DNA from: Sphaerotilus mobilis
Lineage (GTDB): Bacteria > Pseudomonadota > Gammaproteobacteria > Burkholderiales > Burkholderiaceae_C
Assembly: GCF_004216565.1 (NCBI RefSeq)
Contig: NZ_SGWV01000011.1
Coordinates: forward strand, 496,001 to 560,000
Direction of reading: 5' to 3'
DNA: 64,000 nucleotides
Shown: positions 8,483 to 20,015 of the stretch, piece after piece
Layout: the number at the start of each line of letters is the position of its first letter
Position numbering within the stretch: the first letter of the stretch is position 1
The notes under the pieces: generated by a model
Told to the model about the DNA's origin: nothing
The model's database searches: none
What the model saw: the letters and a program-made list of their open reading frames with translations, nothing else
Translations under genes and position numbers: made by a program

Positions 8483-9412
8483 CTAGCACTCACCCAGGAA
8501 GAAGCGGCTCAAGGCAAGCGCACAAGCCTCAGGTTGTTCTTCGGGGATGAAGTGGCCGGCGGGCATGGCCAGGCCGGTCACCGGGCCCTCGCAGACGGCC
8601 TGCCAGTCGGCGATCGGATCGAACAGCCGATGCACCACGCCGCGTTCGCCCCACAGCACTTGCAGCGGTGCCTGCACCTTCTGGCCGGCGCTTCGCGACA
8701 TCCGGTCATGGACCAGGTCGATGCTGGCGGCGGCGCGGTAGTCCTCGCAGGCGGCGTGGATGCCCGCGGCGTTGCAGAAGCAGCGCTCGTAGTCCAGCAG
8801 GGCCGGTGGCTCGACATGGTCCAGCCCATCGGCGCCCCAGCCACCGAGCTTGGCGTGCAGGTAGTAGGTCGCGTTGCCGCCGATCATGCGTTCGGGCAGT
8901 GGCGCGCTCTGGATCAGGTGGAACCAGTGGTAGTAGGCCGAGGCGAAGGCCATGTCGGTGCGCTCGTACATGGTCAGCGTTGGCACGACGTCGATGACGC
9001 AGAGCCGGTCGACGCGCTCCGGATGGTCCAGCGCCATGCGGTGAGCGACCCGTGCGCCGCGGTCATGGCCGCAGACGTTGTAGCGGCGGTGACCCAGCGC
9101 GGCCATCAGGCCGACCAGATCGGCCGCCATGACCCGCTTGCTGTAGTTGGCATGGTCGGGCAGGCCGGGCGGCTTGTCGGAATCGCCATAGCCACGCAGG
9201 TCCGGGATGACCAACCGGAAGTGCGGCGCCAGCCGCAGCGCGACGCGGTGCCACATCGCATGGGTCTGCGGGAAACCGTGCAACAGCAGCAGCACCGGCG
9301 CACCCGTATCGTCGGCTGGCCGGCCGCCCAGGCGGGCAAAGAGGCGCTGGCCGTCGACCTCGAACTGTTGCGAATGGAAGCCCTCGAACCAGGCGGTGTG
9401 CAGGCCGGACAT
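8483..9412 (-). CDS. Alpha/beta hydrolase, haloacetate dehalogenase type
   Basis: A 309-residue alpha/beta hydrolase starting at the ATG at 9412 (GGAG 7 bp upstream). The nucleophile elbow is GHDRGAR, with Asp117 in place of the usual Ser, exactly as in fluoroacetate/haloacetate dehalogenases. DLRGYGDSDKP supplies the substrate-carboxylate Arg pair, HGFPQTHAMW the oxyanion region, YYHWFHL the halide-site His-Trp pair, and GHFIPEEQP the catalytic His. Known members release halide from haloacetate, giving glycolate; some relatives are epoxide hydrolases, which cannot be excluded. An SDR gene is divergent from it. Confidence 0.87.
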   Translation of the reverse strand: MSGLHTAWFEGFHSQQFEVDGQRLFARLGGRPADDTGAPVLLLLHGFPQTHAMWHRVALRLAPHFRLVIPDLRGYGDSDKPPGLPDHANYSKRVMAADLVGLMAALGHRRYNVCGHDRGARVAHRMALDHPERVDRLCVIDVVPTLTMYERTDMAFASAYYHWFHLIQSAPLPERMIGGNATYYLHAKLGGWGADGLDHVEPPALLDYERCFCNAAGIHAACEDYRAAASIDLVHDRMSRSAGQKVQAPLQVLWGERGVVHRLFDPIADWQAVCEGPVTGLAMPAGHFIPEEQPEACALALSRFFLGEC

Positions 9413-9545: not shown

Positions 9546-10379
9546 ATGACCCAGGACACGTTTGCCCGCTGGCCCGATGACGCCTTGACCCTGCGCCCGC
9601 CCGCGCCCGCCGCCGACGGTCGCCAGCCGCTGCTGCTGATCACCGGCGGCAGTCGCGGCATCGGTGCGGCCACGGCCCGGCTGGCCGCCGCCGCCGGCTG
9701 GCATGTGGCGCTGACCTTTGCCAGCGACGTCGCGGCCGCCGACGCGGTCGTCGACGAGTTGCGTCAGGGCGGCCGGCAGGCCCGCGCCTGGCGGCTCGAC
9801 GTCGCCGACGAGGCCCAGGTGCTGGCCGTCTGCGCCGAGGTCGACGCCTGGGCGCTCGCCCAGGGGCTGGCGCTGCGTGGCCTGGTCAACAACGCCGGGG
9901 TGGTCGACCGGGCCCAGCGTTGCGACGAGATGAGCGGCGAACGCCTGCGCCGCATGGTCGGCATCAACCTGCTGGGCGCGATGTACGTGGCGCGCGAGGC
10001 GGTGCGCCGACTCAGCACCCGCCACGGCGGCGCGGGCGGCGCGATCGTCAACCTGTCCTCGGTCGCTGCGCGGCTGGGCGCGGCCGGTCAATACGTCGAC
10101 TACGCGGCCACCAAGGCGGCGCTGGACATCTGGACCCAAGGCCTCGCACGCGAGGTCGCCGCCGAGGGCGTGCGGGTCAACTCGGTGCGCCCCGGCGTGA
10201 TCGACACCGACATCCACGCCAGCGGCGGCCAGCCCGACCGCGCCTGGCAACTCGCCCCCCAGATCCCGCAGCAGCGCCCCGGCACCGCCGAGGAGATCGC
10301 CCAAACCATCGTCTGGCTGCTGGCCCCGCAGTCGTCCTACACGACCGGCGCGATCGTCGAGGTGGCGGGTGGGCGTTAA
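9546..10379 (+). CDS. SDR-family NAD(P)-dependent oxidoreductase
   Basis: A 277-residue short-chain dehydrogenase. The cofactor motif TGGSRGIG lies near residues 36-43, NNAG follows at about 120, the catalytic Ser in NLSSVAA, and YxxxK as YAATK. RPGVIDTDIHASGG is the usual segment after the catalytic core. A start at 9510 is possible, but the ATG at 9546 puts a typical 30-residue lead before the first strand. It is divergent from the haloacetate-dehalogenase-type gene (133-bp gap) and its TAA stop overlaps the convergent TIR-like gene stop. The substrate is unknown; it resembles YgfF-type/glucose dehydrogenase-like SDRs. Confidence 0.87.
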   Translation: MTQDTFARWPDDALTLRPPAPAADGRQPLLLITGGSRGIGAATARLAAAAGWHVALTFASDVAAADAVVDELRQGGRQARAWRLDVADEAQVLAVCAEVDAWALAQGLALRGLVNNAGVVDRAQRCDEMSGERLRRMVGINLLGAMYVAREAVRRLSTRHGGAGGAIVNLSSVAARLGAAGQYVDYAATKAALDIWTQGLAREVAAEGVRVNSVRPGVIDTDIHASGGQPDRAWQLAPQIPQQRPGTAEEIAQTIVWLLAPQSSYTTGAIVEVAGGR

Positions 10380-12202
10380 CCCGGGCAGCCGTTGACCTGT
10401 CGCGCCCCGGCGCGGCACAGGTCCTGGTCCAGCCAGAGTTCGTAGACGTCGCCGCTCGGGCGAGCCTGCCGGAGGTGGACCAAGTCTGCGGTCTGGCCGA
10501 CCTGGTCGCTGGCCAGCCGGCGTACCCAGCGTGCCAGGCCCTGATGGCTGGTGCCTTGGCTGCGCAGCTCGGTGCGGCTGGGGGCCTGGTCGCCGACCAC
10601 GGCCAGCGCGGGCACCCGCCAGCCGGCTTCGGCCAACTGGGTGGCCAGACGCATGGCCAGCGGGCGCTGGACCTCGTCGGCGAGCTGGATGTAGATGACC
10701 GGCTGCGGCACCCGCGTGAAGCCGGTGATGCGCTCGCGCACTTGTTCGCCTTGCTGGCGCGCCTCCGGACCGAGCACGGCGGCGGCATCGACGAAGCGCA
10801 GCACCGCCTGGCGGTGCAGCGCCAGCGTCAGCGGGCTGGCCTCGCCGAGCAACGTCAGCGTGTGGCGGGCTGCCTCGGTGACGGCCGCCGTGCCGGCGCG
10901 GTGCAGCAGGTTGGCCTCGGCACGTTCGACGGCCAGTGGTAAGACGTCCGAATGCAGCTGGCTGGACACGTCCAGCTCGCTGGCCGCGCTCCAGCGCACC
11001 TGCGGATCGACGGCATAGAGGGCATCGAGCCGCAAGGCCAGCTCGCGTTGCAGCTCGGACGAGGGCGCGATGCGCGACGCCAGCAGGGCCAGCTCGGGCG
11101 CGTCGGCACCGAACAGCAGGTCGGACGAGGGCTGCGGGCGCATCGCGGCCAGGGCGGCCCGTTCGGCCTGGGCGGCAATCGCCTCGATGTCGCGTTTGCC
11201 GGGCTTGCCACGGACGGGGCGCGCACCCGGGCGGGTGCCCGCCGCTGTCGGCTCGGAGGGGATCTCCAGGCCGCCATCGGTCACGGCCGGTGCGCTGGCG
11301 GCCACCGCCAGGTGGTCGATCGGTCGCTCGACCGGCGTCGGCTCGTCGTCGACCGACAGCATGGCCATCAGGCGCAAGGCTTCCTGCCGCCGCGCGGTGG
11401 GCAGGCCGTCGTGGTCTCGCAGGGCGGCCGAGAGGTGTTCGCGTGCCCGCGTGAACTCGCGCTGGCGCAGCAGCAGGTGGGCCAGCTGGAAGTGCGCCAC
11501 GCCAATGTCCGGCCGGGCCGCCAGGGCCCGTTCATAGGCCTGCCGGGCAGCGACCAGGTCGGGCGTGATCGAGAACTGGGCCTGTTGCGCCAGCGTCATC
11601 TGCACCTGGGCCTCGCGCTCGTCGAGGGCCTCCAGGCCGACCTGGGTCGCGCCGGCAAGCAGCAAGGCCAAGACGCCAACGGTCGTCAGCGTGCGCCACC
11701 CTCGGCGCGCCGGTGCCGCGCCGGCCAGCGCGGGTGCGCCGTGTTCGTCGGTCAGGAAGCCGAGCGTTGCGAGTTCGGCGCACAAGGCCGCCAGGTCGGC
11801 GCCCCAGTGGCTGTGTCGCAGCGGCAAGGACGGCTGGGTCGCCAGCGTGACCAGGTCCGGCGACAGGCCATGGGCCAGCAGCGGCGCCGTCTGGTCGATG
11901 CGCAGCACCTGCAGATGGGCGCGGGTGGCCAGGGCGGCCAGCAGGTGACGCCGCACCGGCTCGCTCGGCGCGCCGGCACCGTCGGCATCGGGGTCGGCGG
12001 GCAGGTCGGCGTAGTCGGGCGTCAGCAGCACCAGCAGCACGCTGCCGGGGCCGAGCTGGCTGGGGACCTCGTCCTCGGCCAGCTTCACCAGATCGACAAC
12101 CGGCTCGCCGAACAGCTCGCGCAAGCCGGCCTGCAGACGCTGGGCGGCACGCGCACCCTGCTCGCCACGGTGGCTCAGGCAGATCGGGGCATGCAGGGGC
12201 AT
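10376..12202 (-). CDS. TIR-like / transmembrane / TPR protein next to a caspase
   Basis: A 608-residue multidomain protein, start at the ATG at 12202, 29 bp after the caspase stop. Residues 1-145 resemble a bacterial TIR domain: ICLSHRGEQGARAAQRLQ, an acidic loop AEDEV, the hydrophobic strand SVLLVLLTPDYADL, and RRHLLAALATRAHLQVLRI. The Glu that NADase TIR domains carry in that helix appears to be replaced. A single transmembrane helix spans about 172-191. One or two TPR-like repeats follow (about 216-265), then a Pro/Ala-rich and helical region, and a C-terminal alpha/beta domain (about 520-600) resembling LytR_C/SPOR-type modules. No characterised protein comes to mind. It is the last gene of the amidase-caspase set. 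Confidence 0.8.
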   Translation of the reverse strand: MPLHAPICLSHRGEQGARAAQRLQAGLRELFGEPVVDLVKLAEDEVPSQLGPGSVLLVLLTPDYADLPADPDADGAGAPSEPVRRHLLAALATRAHLQVLRIDQTAPLLAHGLSPDLVTLATQPSLPLRHSHWGADLAALCAELATLGFLTDEHGAPALAGAAPARRGWRTLTTVGVLALLLAGATQVGLEALDEREAQVQMTLAQQAQFSITPDLVAARQAYERALAARPDIGVAHFQLAHLLLRQREFTRAREHLSAALRDHDGLPTARRQEALRLMAMLSVDDEPTPVERPIDHLAVAASAPAVTDGGLEIPSEPTAAGTRPGARPVRGKPGKRDIEAIAAQAERAALAAMRPQPSSDLLFGADAPELALLASRIAPSSELQRELALRLDALYAVDPQVRWSAASELDVSSQLHSDVLPLAVERAEANLLHRAGTAAVTEAARHTLTLLGEASPLTLALHRQAVLRFVDAAAVLGPEARQQGEQVRERITGFTRVPQPVIYIQLADEVQRPLAMRLATQLAEAGWRVPALAVVGDQAPSRTELRSQGTSHQGLARWVRRLASDQVGQTADLVHLRQARPSGDVYELWLDQDLCRAGARQVNGCPG

Positions 12203-12231
12203 GTGGGGACCAGGGACCACGTCAGGGCGGC

Positions 12232-13314
12232 TCAGATCAGGAAGGGCGTGTGCGTCAGCATGGTCGTCGCCGGGCCGAGCGTGTAGAGGTTGGGCGACTG
12301 CGTCGGCGGCAGGCCGGCGCGCACGCGGCTGTGGAACAGGCGGTGGTTGCCCTTGAACTTGCCGCCGTTCCAGACCTTGAGCACCTGCTCGGTGAAGGCT
12401 CCGTTGTGCTCGCCGTCCATCGAGGTCTGGTTGTCCTGACAACCCGAGATCAGCACGACCGAGGCCTTGAAGCGGCTGACGATGCCGGTCAGCCGGTTGC
12501 TGTTCGGGGCGATGGTCAGGCTGGCCAGGACCGCATCCGGGTCGGCGCTGGCAGCCCGGCCGGCCGCCGTCTTGGCGAGCTTGCGCTGCAGCTGGTCGTA
12601 GAAGGCCTGGTGGGCCGCGTAGGTGCGCCGCGCGATGGCGGTGGGCATCTGGCGCGGCCGGGGGCCGAACGATGCCAGGCCGGGCTGGGGCGGAGCGGCC
12701 CGCACCGAGGTGCCGCTGTGGCAGCTGTCGGTCAGGACCAGGATGCGCACGCCGGCGGCGAAGCGGCTCAGAGCCAGGTAGGTCTCGTCGTCGATCAGCT
12801 GGCTGTCGTAGAGGCACCAGGTCTCGTCGAGCTTGTCGTCCTCGTCGCCGGTGACGTCGTCGACCTGCCCGCCATGTCCGGAAAAGGTCAGCAGAAAGTA
12901 GTCGCCCGAGACCAGCGTCTGCGCCGCCTTGTCCAGCGCGGCCAGCACCTTGGCGCGGGTGGCGGCCTTGGTCAGCAGCACGGTGGGCTTGAGCCCGCGC
13001 GCGGTGGCGATCGCGGCCATGTCGTGCGCATCGGCCTCGCAGGCGACCAGGTCACCGGTCCAGCCGCCGTAGTGCTTGGGGCTGACCGAGTTCAGGCCCA
13101 GGTGCAGCGACAGGCCGATCGGCTTGCGCGTGACCTTGGCGGGGGTCTTGGTGGCGACCTTGCCAGCGACCTTCGTGGCGACCTTCGTGGCAACCTTTGA
13201 GGCAACCTTCCCCGCACTGGCCTTCCTGACGGGGCCCTTGAGGGTGGCGGTGCCCTTCTTGGCGGGGGCCCGCTCGACGGCGGCCGGCGGGGTTGCGATC
13301 GGTTCTTGTGCCAT
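12232..13314 (-). CDS. Caspase-like (peptidase C14) protein with histone-H1-like N-terminal tail
   Basis: A 360-residue cysteine protease. The catalytic His lies in LTFSGHGGQ (His147) and the Cys in LTDSCHSG (Cys198), the classic clan CD/metacaspase pair; GDEDD and DETWCLYD lie between them as in bacterial orthocaspases/metacaspases. Residues 18-64 are a Lys/Ala-rich tail with five KVA(S/T/G) tetrads, like histone H1 or AlgP tails. The ATG at 13314 is preferred because AGGAG sits 7 bp upstream; an upstream ATG at 13353 has no ribosome site. No signal peptide is seen, so it is cytoplasmic. It sits between an AmpD-like amidase and a TIR-like TPR protein, suggesting a regulated proteolysis or cell-death role, which is inference. 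Confidence 0.9.
13151..13210 (-). repeat. Five 12-bp tandem repeats encoding the basic KVAx tail of the caspase
   Basis: Five consecutive imperfect 12-bp units (consensus on the coding strand AAGGTCGCCACG) encode [16 protein letters not shown] and KVAT. Recombination between units would lengthen or shorten the basic tail in frame. Confidence 0.8.
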
Positions 13315-13450
13315 GTCCTGCTCCTGGGTGCTTGTTGTCATGTCCGGGTTCATGCGTGTCCGGAAGAAACGGCCGACGAGTACAGCGCAAGGCCTCGCAC
13401 GCTGTCCAGTGCGCAGCCGTATCTGAAAGTTTCGACGCGGCGGGCAGGCC

Positions 13451-14356
13451 TCAGCGTGCCCGTGTCGTCTTCTTGCCCGCGACCTTCATGGCGGACTTCA
13501 CGGCCTTCGCGGCCAGCTTCTTCGGCGCGGCGCGTGTTCCGGCTGGCGGCTGATCGACCAGGAAGCTGTTGTTGACCCAGCCTTCCAGGTCGGTCGGGCC
13601 GGCCACCTCGACCCGGCTCCAGCGGCTGCCGACTTCCAGCAGCAGCAGCTCGGTGCCCCGCGCCAGCGGCGGCGCCACCACCGCAGCGAGGCCGTCTGGT
13701 GCGCTGCGGATGTTGAGCGTGCTGGCGTTGACCCAGCGGCGCGGCAGCGCGTCGTCCTCGCGGCCGAAGGCCTGGCTGCGCAGGGCGGCCATGGGGAAGG
13801 CGGGCCCGGGGTCGGACTTGCGGCCCGGGGCGATGTCCTCGTGGCCCAGCACCTCCTGCAGGCCGTAGGTGCTCACCAGCAGCTCGGCCAGCTCGATGGC
13901 CCGCTCGATCTGCACGCCGCTGTAGGCATGCCAGCCCCGCACCGGCCCGCCTTGCGCATGGGCGCCGACGTGCACCTGATCCTCCGGATAGGCCTGCTTG
14001 AACCAGCTCATGTACTGGGCGCCGACGCGGTCCAGCGCCCCGGCGTTGTCCATCTCGATGCCGATGCTGTGCGAATTGAGGCCGGTCAGACCATCCCAGG
14101 CGCTGATGCCGGCATGCCAGGTCACGACGTTGAACGGCGCGAGCTGGACGATGCGGCCGTCACGCCCGAGCACGAGGTGCGCCGAGGCGTTGCCGCTGGG
14201 CTTCTTCGTGCACAAGGAGGCGACCGAGCTCTCCAGCGAGCGCCCGGCCGTGTAGTGCATCACCAGGTAGCGCGGGCTCAGAGGCCCGCCAATGTTGGGC
14301 GTGGCCTGGAACGAACAGCCGTCGCCGACAAGCCTGTGGTTCTTGATGCTGAGCAT
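13451..14356 (-). CDS. N-acetylmuramoyl-L-alanine amidase (AmpD-like) with SH3b domain and basic tail
   Basis: A 301-residue amidase_2 protein. Zinc ligands are His34 (LVMHYTAG), His172 (LGHEDIAPG) and Asp182 (KSDPGPAF), matching AmpD spacing, with Lys180 near the active site. An SH3b-like segment follows (about 207-270: [20 protein letters not shown]), likely for wall binding. The last 27 residues form a Lys/Ala-rich tail ([19 protein letters not shown]) similar to the tail of the neighbouring caspase. No signal peptide is seen, so it resembles a cytoplasmic AmpD or an endolysin. The start is supported by GGAGG 6 bp upstream. The caspase gene begins 136 bp after its stop. Confidence 0.88.
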
Positions 14357-19406: not shown

Positions 19407-20015
19407 TCAGGGACTGAAGGCCTTCAGTCCGGCCGCGATGCGCGTCACGACCGTCACGCCACACAGCGCGGCGAAGCCAAACGCCAGCGGGTTGAACCAG
19501 GCCGGCATCAGGCACATCAGGCTGAACACCGCGATGGTTTCGGTGCTCTCGGTCAGACCGCCCAGGTAGTGGAAGCCCTTGCCGGTGAAGGTCGTGCTGG
19601 TCAGGCCACGCTGGGCGGCGATCACCGCAAAGGCCAGGAAGGTCGAGCCGGTGCCGATGAAGGCATAGATCAGCACGGCGGCGGCCAGGCCGTGGCGGGC
19701 CGGGTCGGCCAGGGCGAAGGCCAGCGGGATGGCCGAATAGAACAGGAAGTCCAGCGAGATGTCGAGGAAGGCACCGCGGTCGGTCGGCTGGCTCTGCCGC
19801 GCCATCGCGCCGTCCAGGCCGTCGGCCAGGCGGTTGAGCAAGATGCACACGAGCGCGAGGTCAGACCGGCCAGTGGCGATCAGCGGCACGGCGCCGAGGC
19901 CGATCACGAAGCCGATCCAGCTGACCGTGTCGGGCCGCAGACCGGCGCGCAGCAGGCTGCGGGCGAATGAGTCGAGCGGTCGCTTGAGCAGGGTGTTGAG
20001 GCGGGCGTCGAACAT
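19407..20015 (-). CDS. CDP-alcohol phosphatidyltransferase family protein (YnjF-like)
   Basis: A 202-residue membrane protein with the family signature D-x2-DG-x2-AR-x8-G-x3-D-x3-D, visible as DGLDGAMARQ followed by GAFLDISLD. These Asp residues bind the metal and CDP-linked lipid. About six transmembrane segments follow. Its position as the last gene after a YnjBCD-type ABC transporter mirrors the E. coli ynjB-C-D-(E)-F cluster. Known family members swap CMP for an alcohol to make phospholipid head groups; the acceptor here is unknown. It starts 8 bp after the DUF3047 gene stop. Confidence 0.87.
   Translation of the reverse strand: MFDARLNTLLKRPLDSFARSLLRAGLRPDTVSWIGFVIGLGAVPLIATGRSDLALVCILLNRLADGLDGAMARQSQPTDRGAFLDISLDFLFYSAIPLAFALADPARHGLAAAVLIYAFIGTGSTFLAFAVIAAQRGLTSTTFTGKGFHYLGGLTESTETIAVFSLMCLMPAWFNPLAFGFAALCGVTVVTRIAAGLKAFSP

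Follow-up and report, generated by a model that had tools for sequence, protein, structure and literature searches.

Endolysin-like amidases and lysozymes have been described near bacterial gasdermins, in operons with caspase or CHAT proteases, in the available text of PMC9612521, which proposes holin-endolysin mimicry and notes a similarity to effectors of the type VI secretion system (T6SS). The accessible parts of other papers describe the Canu caspase, which activates a neighbouring pro-nuclease (PMC12799240, where the TIR-caspase Thoeris, Rousset 2025, is also cited), the pairing of caspases with alpha/beta-hydrolases in conflict systems, with a lysozyme-like effector in another system (PMC7159879, from whose main text the words amidase and lipase are absent), and LypABC of Caulobacter, an immune-like module that drives host lysis (PMC13236601). 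Here we analyse a stretch of 64,000 nucleotides of Sphaerotilus mobilis (the window; contig NZ_SGWV01000011.1, positions 496,001 to 560,000), in which three minus-strand genes encode an amidase, a caspase-like protease and a TIR/TPR protein. The amidase and the caspase look non-randomly linked, and we tentatively read the locus as a mosaic, caspase-centred cell-death cassette with a recruited endolysin-like amidase for programmed lysis, a reading to which we give somewhat less than an even chance. The first-pass annotation of this DNA had called the three genes a candidate undescribed module; 'undescribed' is too strong, given the amidases reported near caspase/gasdermin operons in the available text of PMC9612521. 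In the open-access literature we found neither a text describing the window trio nor an account of a caspase-amidase pair that lacks a gasdermin and has TIR/TPR or CHAT partners.

Pfam and fold searches confirmed that the three genes are real (Amidase_2 with SH3b, a metacaspase-type caspase, and a TIR-fold/transmembrane/TPR protein), in agreement with the domains named in the first-pass annotation. The surroundings of the caspase were counted over 54 loci in which a home-made codon-model gene caller placed this gene; L013, whose caspase was missed by the caller, and the duplicates L140 and L143 were left out, and the near-copies L004-L006 and L009/L011 were kept. Within three genes of the caspase there is a CHAT gene in 26 loci, a TIR gene in 8, an amidase gene in 7 and none of these in 23 (L021, where the contig ends inside the giant CHAT gene, was scored as none for CHAT, as were L015, L018 and L029, which have short flanks). 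The amidase is immediately adjacent to the caspase, on the same strand, in all seven linked loci. Clustering of the 105 immediate neighbours into 52 families returned the CHAT partner 22 times, the amidase seven times and an opposite-strand gene six times, the last being confined to a single site specific to one genus. Of the 27 caspase-bearing genomes (the copy in G157 being distant), five carry the amidase, which is adjacent in three; the chance of this is about 1e-9, with about 4,000 genes, roughly 2/4,000 per genome and genomes treated as independent, two of the three being sister species.

A three-gene unit is less constant. Amidase, caspase and a TIR gene occur together in four of the 54 loci, namely the window, Leptothrix discophora (L003), L014 and L074, and the last two have the order caspase, amidase, giant CHAT protein and TIR, with a TIR protein that differs from that of the window. 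The module first proposed for this DNA stands as a non-random caspase-amidase linkage with TIR genes near some caspases, and falls as a fixed trio.

The amidase precedes the caspase in the window and in L. discophora (two loci, amidase-caspase-TIR) and follows it in five loci, from four Hydrogenophaga and from G114 (caspase-amidase-giant). In the amidase tree (56 rows, IQ-TREE) the linked amidases occupy two places, and the starred branches force at least two changes: the window and L. discophora copies are sister to the unlinked amidases of Sphaerotilus hippei and G157 (97/93, starred), and the five Hydrogenophaga/G114 amidases form a clade of their own (100/100, starred). The linked caspases also fall in two places, with two changes needed, in a tree of 51 rows that was made by a quick method without bootstrap and additionally leaves out L005, L006 and L021. 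The sister of the window pair in this tree, L141, has a TIR/TPR protein, and its genome gave no match to the amidase family. The amidase-caspase neighbourhood appears to have arisen more than once; two recruitments, or one followed by several losses, both fit, and the differing gene orders favour two.

Across genomes the parts are spread unevenly. The genus group of the window (13 genomes, including L. discophora, G151, and S. hippei, L012 and G152) has a strong caspase match in 12, and the trios of the window and L. discophora lie at the same site, with a shared downstream flank, a different upstream flank and amidases that are 78% identical. In 150 genomes of the family, the caspase was found in 16 at E<1e-50 and in 34 at E<=0.001; a strong match over the full length of the amidase was seen in two (G000 and G114) and some match at E<=0.001 in 146; and for the TIR/TPR protein no genome but that of the window had a full-length relative, with weak or partial matches in nine others. 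Of the 399 genomes surveyed in the order, 15 carry the amidase subfamily (E<1e-50) and 6 the caspase (E<=1e-30). Plasmid-borne spread was also considered: a search of 72,556 plasmid records with the amidase gave two matches at E<=1e-20, with 31 and 40% identity. The whole-genome searches score few first-look candidates per genome (four for the caspase, five for the amidase), which makes the absences soft. An obligate trio was rejected, as the parts occur apart across the surveyed genomes.

The catalytic dyad of the caspase, which the first-pass annotation had correctly described as intact, is His160/Cys211 (147/198 when counted from M14), and it is kept in 54/54 caspases. The closest solved structure is 3bij (GSU0716, E=6e-89), which we take to be from Geobacter, followed by metacaspases, including eukaryotic ones. 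Metacaspases cleave after Lys or Arg. The S1 pocket of the metacaspase TbMCA2 consists of Cys92, Asp95, Ser156 and Asp211, according to the available text of PMC4357240, and these positions correspond, by motif spacing, to C105, D108, S158 and D209 of the window caspase. Of 51 caspases, 48 keep the pocket pattern, and a stricter version of it holds in 43 of 54. The His/Cys dyad and the acidic S1-pocket pattern place the protein with the metacaspases/orthocaspases (C14), and the S1 residues predict cleavage after basic residues. The caspase domain is preceded by a Lys-rich region, and the neighbouring amidase closes with a Lys/Arg-rich tail; the fit of the predicted specificity with these basic sequences is our main mechanistic clue, short of proof. 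In a PADLOC scan of the three trio proteins, the generic caspase model alone matched. Elsewhere, a second, distant caspase-like frame lies far from the trio in the window genome (contig C1, L002), and a caspase of 47% identity was found on a contig labelled Nitrososphaera, an archaeal metagenome-assembled genome (L032).

The amidase matches Amidase_2 (E=1.1e-27) and the fold of AmpD/AmiD, with AmiD and AmpDh2 as the nearest solved structures by sequence. H34, H172, D182 and E101 are kept in 20/20 aligned relatives, in none of which a signal peptide is visible by eye, and the window copy has no hydrophobic segment. It also matches phage sequences: of 51 phage records with a match, 15 span 80% or more of the query, IMG/VR contigs reach 51% identity, and PHROGs lysis families are matched. 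By kinship and by the missing signal peptide the protein resembles the phage amidase endolysins; the context of a phage or prophage lysis cassette is absent, with no phage family in ten of the eleven called flanking genes.

A C-terminal tail of 29-52 residues with 7-15 Lys/Arg is present in all members of a 13-member clade that includes the window amidase and in 0/20 other bacterial relatives, and total lengths are 297-321 aa in the clade versus 264-290 aa in those relatives. Residues 274-301 of the window copy have pLDDT <50 in the predicted model and are disordered there. The tail rule was run on 33 bacterial and 23 viral rows; its anchor motif was often not found in viral rows, which then went uncounted, and the longer stretches given by L159 and L176 were not counted as tails. 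The last 30 residues hold 2-10 Lys/Arg in viral rows, 5-11 in the tailed clade and 1-5 in other bacterial rows, and judged in this way basic ends alone do not separate the clade from the viral rows. Since the Lys/Arg tail is specific to the clade among bacterial relatives and the S1-pocket residues of the caspase are kept, the tail is a plausible caspase substrate, and the earlier idea of a signal passed through a protease to a wall hydrolase becomes concrete.

The N-terminal domain of the third protein has a TIR fold. Its position 86 is His in the window and in L. discophora and Glu in 7/7 other aligned TIRs, and an upstream loop is shortened. As this TIR lacks the catalytic Glu of its relatives, NAD-based signalling is unlikely and a scaffold role is the simpler reading, which the comparison suggests. 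The TIR/TPR proteins of L012, L022 and L141 that lie near the caspase share the C-terminal region, which recurs within a 1,248-aa protein of L076; this domain (window 10403-11101) had no Pfam match and no clear fold name in a whole-chain search. L141 has, in addition to its TIR/TPR protein, a TIR-less copy next to the caspase (L141:9041-10450), so the TIR domain is optional. The window genome has another gene with a TIR_2 match above the cut-off (contig C1, L245), far from the trio.

From the gene anatomy, the non-random linkage, the kept catalytic residues, the lack of a visible export signal, the basic tail and the missing TIR Glu we infer an order of activation, a cleavage, a lysis and an anti-phage purpose. 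A membrane-anchored, non-enzymatic TIR/TPR scaffold would assemble on a cue and activate the caspase, which would cleave both itself, in the N-terminal region, and the tail of the amidase, each time after Lys/Arg; following damage to the inner membrane, the amidase released in this way would digest the wall and lyse the cell, probably as a means of aborting phage infection. The adjacent giant of the Hydrogenophaga form, with two lipase-like hydrolase domains and CHAT, could breach the membrane for the amidase.

Several observations weigh against this cassette. No membrane-breaching part was seen in the window version, whose operon showed neither a holin nor a gasdermin nor a lipase gene, and no defence genes surround the trio in the scanned flanks (ten of eleven genes per scan). 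In this form the trio is complete in 2/13 genomes of the genus group, those of the window and L. discophora. Genome co-occurrence is weak (both genes in 2/399, p=0.018, or 0.16 without the genome of the window itself), so the linkage argument rests on adjacency; L009 and L011, both counted among the seven linked loci, are near-copies, and the pattern would also fit a single recruitment with later losses. The amidase is absent from 22/27 caspase-bearing genomes and 13/15 amidase-bearing order genomes gave no match to the window caspase, which goes against the co-conservation that the first-pass annotation had set as a check. The tail is also found in five unlinked members of its clade and in one that lies beside a TIR gene; it is therefore a clade trait rather than a linkage trait, and precedes the linkage or is independent of it. 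Activity, cleavage and defence role are predictions. A fuller version, a gasdermin-free suicide switch in which a membrane scaffold with a catalytically dead TIR and TPRs would assemble a metacaspase-type protease, and this protease would free a domesticated phage endolysin through cuts in the Lys/Arg tail, the endolysin having been recruited separately by at least two lineages, is in our view unlikely. The trio seems less unified than first read, and is better supported as a caspase-endolysin pair of predicted function.

The amidase could instead be an independent wall-recycling or stress enzyme, cytoplasmic and AmpD-like, that lies beside the caspase/TIR pair by chance. Relatives of the amidase are indeed found away from any caspase, several without a same-strand partner, those of S. 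hippei and G157 are on a different contig from the caspase, and the gap between the two genes is 97 bp in the window and 213 bp in L. discophora. However, the two genes adjoin each other on the same strand in two lineages and in two gene orders, far above the per-genome chance, and the SH3b domain and the kinship to phage lysins set the protein apart from AmpD recycling enzymes, which leaves this explanation doubtful. It is quite improbable that the amidase is a sensor or processor that trims muropeptides, either imported or set free by phages, and whose product, or the bound enzyme itself, triggers the TIR/caspase pair in the manner of animal PGRPs: the fold does match Drosophila and Apis PGRP-SA (E 1.5e-4 and 2.1e-4), the protein looks cytoplasmic and its gene comes first in the window, but the Zn ligands are kept in 20/20 and the protein is most strongly related to AmiD, AmpDh2 and phage lysins.

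Other loci of the amidase family bear on a further alternative, in which a contractile injection machine (T6SS or extracellular contractile injection system, eCIS) would carry the amidase as its cargo against other bacteria, with the caspase in the same effector set. Thirty amidase loci outside the caspase loci were viewed (29 with the gene called; 39 genes in 40 selective Pfam scans), and seven have effector-type genes beside the amidase or at most two genes away. Patatin is near the amidase in L129 and L136, Lipase_3 followed by patatin in L134, a papain-like protease in L132 and an alpha/beta hydrolase in L236. An operon-like run in L129 (5214-16814) holds Hcp, astacin-like and papain-like proteases, a second caspase, the amidase and patatin, and looks like a T6SS effector island; in L239 (5973-12280) the amidase has an AAA protein on one side and, two genes away, an eCIS_core protein on the other. 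These runs, the patatin or lipase neighbours and the similarity to T6SS effectors noted in the available text of PMC9612521 speak for cargo. The window genome, which is 100% complete, has no Hcp (PF05638, the sole T6SS family searched, with a positive E. coli control; eCIS was not searched genome-wide), and none of the ten scanned flanking genes is PAAR or VgrG, so that we give cargo a slim chance; T6SS delivery is not supported for this genome. The least probable alternative, with a very slim chance, is a prophage lysis relic without present function, which the phage-lysin homology would allow and which is opposed by invariant Zn ligands, scanned flanks free of phage families, a trio conserved in L. 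discophora with 78% amidase identity, and relatives in several families.

The same survey showed a TIR-receiver fusion directly upstream of a tail-bearing amidase (L127:7872-9975; ThsB1 model match, 4e-54), a third immune-type context of the family, and an amidase near a phage or gene transfer agent tail gene (L238). In the remaining loci the selectively scanned neighbours were housekeeping genes or without family. A family of about 976 aa without Pfam match also lies near the amidase in L131 (6351-9281) and L134 (2264-5197), in the latter with Lipase_3 and patatin.

The features of the window locus are listed in Table 1. The amidase gene comes first, the caspase second and the TIR/TPR gene directly after the caspase at a distance of 29 bp, and a promoter and terminator scan gave no signal above chance.

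Table 1. Coordinates of the three genes and their features in the window
Feature	Position	Strand	Basis or remark
AmiD/AmpD-type N-acetylmuramoyl-L-alanine amidase, 301 aa	13451..14356	-	phage endolysin kin, no visible signal peptide
Amidase_2 catalytic domain, Zn ligands H34, H172, D182	13763..14356	-	Pfam, alignment
SH3b domain, aa 206-264	13565..13741	-	weak profile and fold match
Amidase Lys/Arg-rich C-terminal tail, aa 269-301, 10 K/R	13454..13552	-	candidate caspase substrate
Caspase-like protease, Peptidase_C14, metacaspase-type, 373 aa	12232..13353	-	Pfam and structure kinship
Caspase Lys/Ala-rich N-terminal region	13123..13272	-	candidate autoprocessing region
Caspase catalytic His160 (H147 from M14)	12874..12876	-	alignment
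Caspase catalytic Cys211 (C198 from M14)	12721..12723	-	alignment
TIR-fold/transmembrane/TPR/C-terminal domain protein, 608 aa	10376..12202	-	domain and fold searches
Degenerate TIR domain, aa 1-150, His86 where relatives have catalytic Glu	11753..12202	-	fold and alignment
Single predicted transmembrane segment, aa 172-190	11633..11689	-	hydropathy 1.79
TPR repeats, about aa 215-285	11348..11560	-	Pfam, fold search
C-terminal domain, about aa 368-600, common to other TIR/TPR proteins near caspase	10403..11101	-	sequence comparison

The ten Pfam-scanned flanking genes fall into eight named families, which include AraC, GGDEF-EAL, SDR, IlvD, MipA and TetR, and two DUFs. PADLOC, run on ten of the eleven as well, gave no match; the two sets differ in that the gene at 19407 is not in the Pfam set and IlvD is not in the PADLOC set. 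The surrounding defence island that the first-pass annotation had suggested looking for was rejected on these two scans. No further gene was called within 10376-14356 and the nearest flanks belong to named families; a gasdermin gene was not seen in this operon (no gasdermin profile was run genome-wide), and no nuclease was seen in the trio or among the ten scanned genes. The trio is followed by an alpha/beta hydrolase (8483-9412, minus strand) and an opposite-strand SDR (9546-10379, plus strand), both syntenic in L. discophora. The available text of PMC7159879 ties other caspases to alpha/beta hydrolases; that of the window is separated from the trio by the SDR.

The giant neighbour is absent from the window locus. 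One full-length copy that was Pfam-scanned (L030, 1,844 aa) has DUF7379, an LCAT hydrolase, CHAT and TPR-S, and two nucleophile motifs and the CHAT His/Cys motifs are present in 5/5 copies examined. The 22 adjacent CHAT copies comprise 16 of 1,830-2,053 aa and 6 of 603-971 aa; two short copies that were scanned have CHAT without the hydrolase domains, and the copy of L021 is cut by the contig end. Members of the caspase subfamily are most often followed by a same-strand CHAT protein (22 loci, among them L030:9915-15449), and this pair may represent a separate system. In one genus (L144-L149) the caspase lies at a constant chromosomal site, a possible insertion hotspot, with a CHAT partner of 603-924 aa in some species only.

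If the proposed cassette is real, it would show directly the holin-endolysin mimicry proposed in the available text of PMC9612521. A cell-death protease would then control a wall hydrolase instead of a pore, a nuclease or an NADase, bacterial caspases would be tied to programmed lysis, a metacaspase-type enzyme would gain a physiological substrate, and phage lysis genes would have been recruited into host death cassettes. With the candidate substrate, sites and enzyme in two small neighbouring genes, the proposal is easy to test.

Among the known systems, Type IV Thoeris reportedly combines a signal-making TIR with a caspase-like effector. A TIR gene likewise adjoins a caspase-like gene in the window, but the window TIR lacks the catalytic Glu and is fused to transmembrane and TPR segments, so signal synthesis is unlikely, and the likeness to Type IV Thoeris is one of gene pairing. 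With AmiD, AmpDh2 and the phage amidase lysins the window amidase shares fold, Zn site, SH3b or sequence kinship, and it differs from them in its basic tail, its caspase neighbour and the lack of a visible signal peptide. As in the systems of PMC7159879, in its available text, relatives of the window caspase pair in many loci with a giant hydrolase/CHAT/TPR-S protein, whereas the window has no giant, and no MoxR/vWA/VMAP core among the scanned flanks. LypABC, in the accessible part of PMC13236601, is also an immune-like protease module with host lysis, which for the window is proposed only, but has a CARD-NLR/trypsin architecture and no endolysin. Like the gasdermin operons in the available text of PMC9612521, the locus has a caspase/CHAT-type protease with an amidase nearby; unlike them, it has a putative TIR/TPR scaffold, and a gasdermin gene was not seen in the operon. 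Canu, as far as the available text of PMC12799240 describes it, likewise has a caspase beside a hydrolase, together with TPR proteins, and its protease activates a gated effector. The pairing of a caspase with an MBL-fold nuclease that defines Canu is absent from the window: where Canu has such a nuclease with a gating insertion, the candidate effector of the window is a wall amidase with a basic tail.

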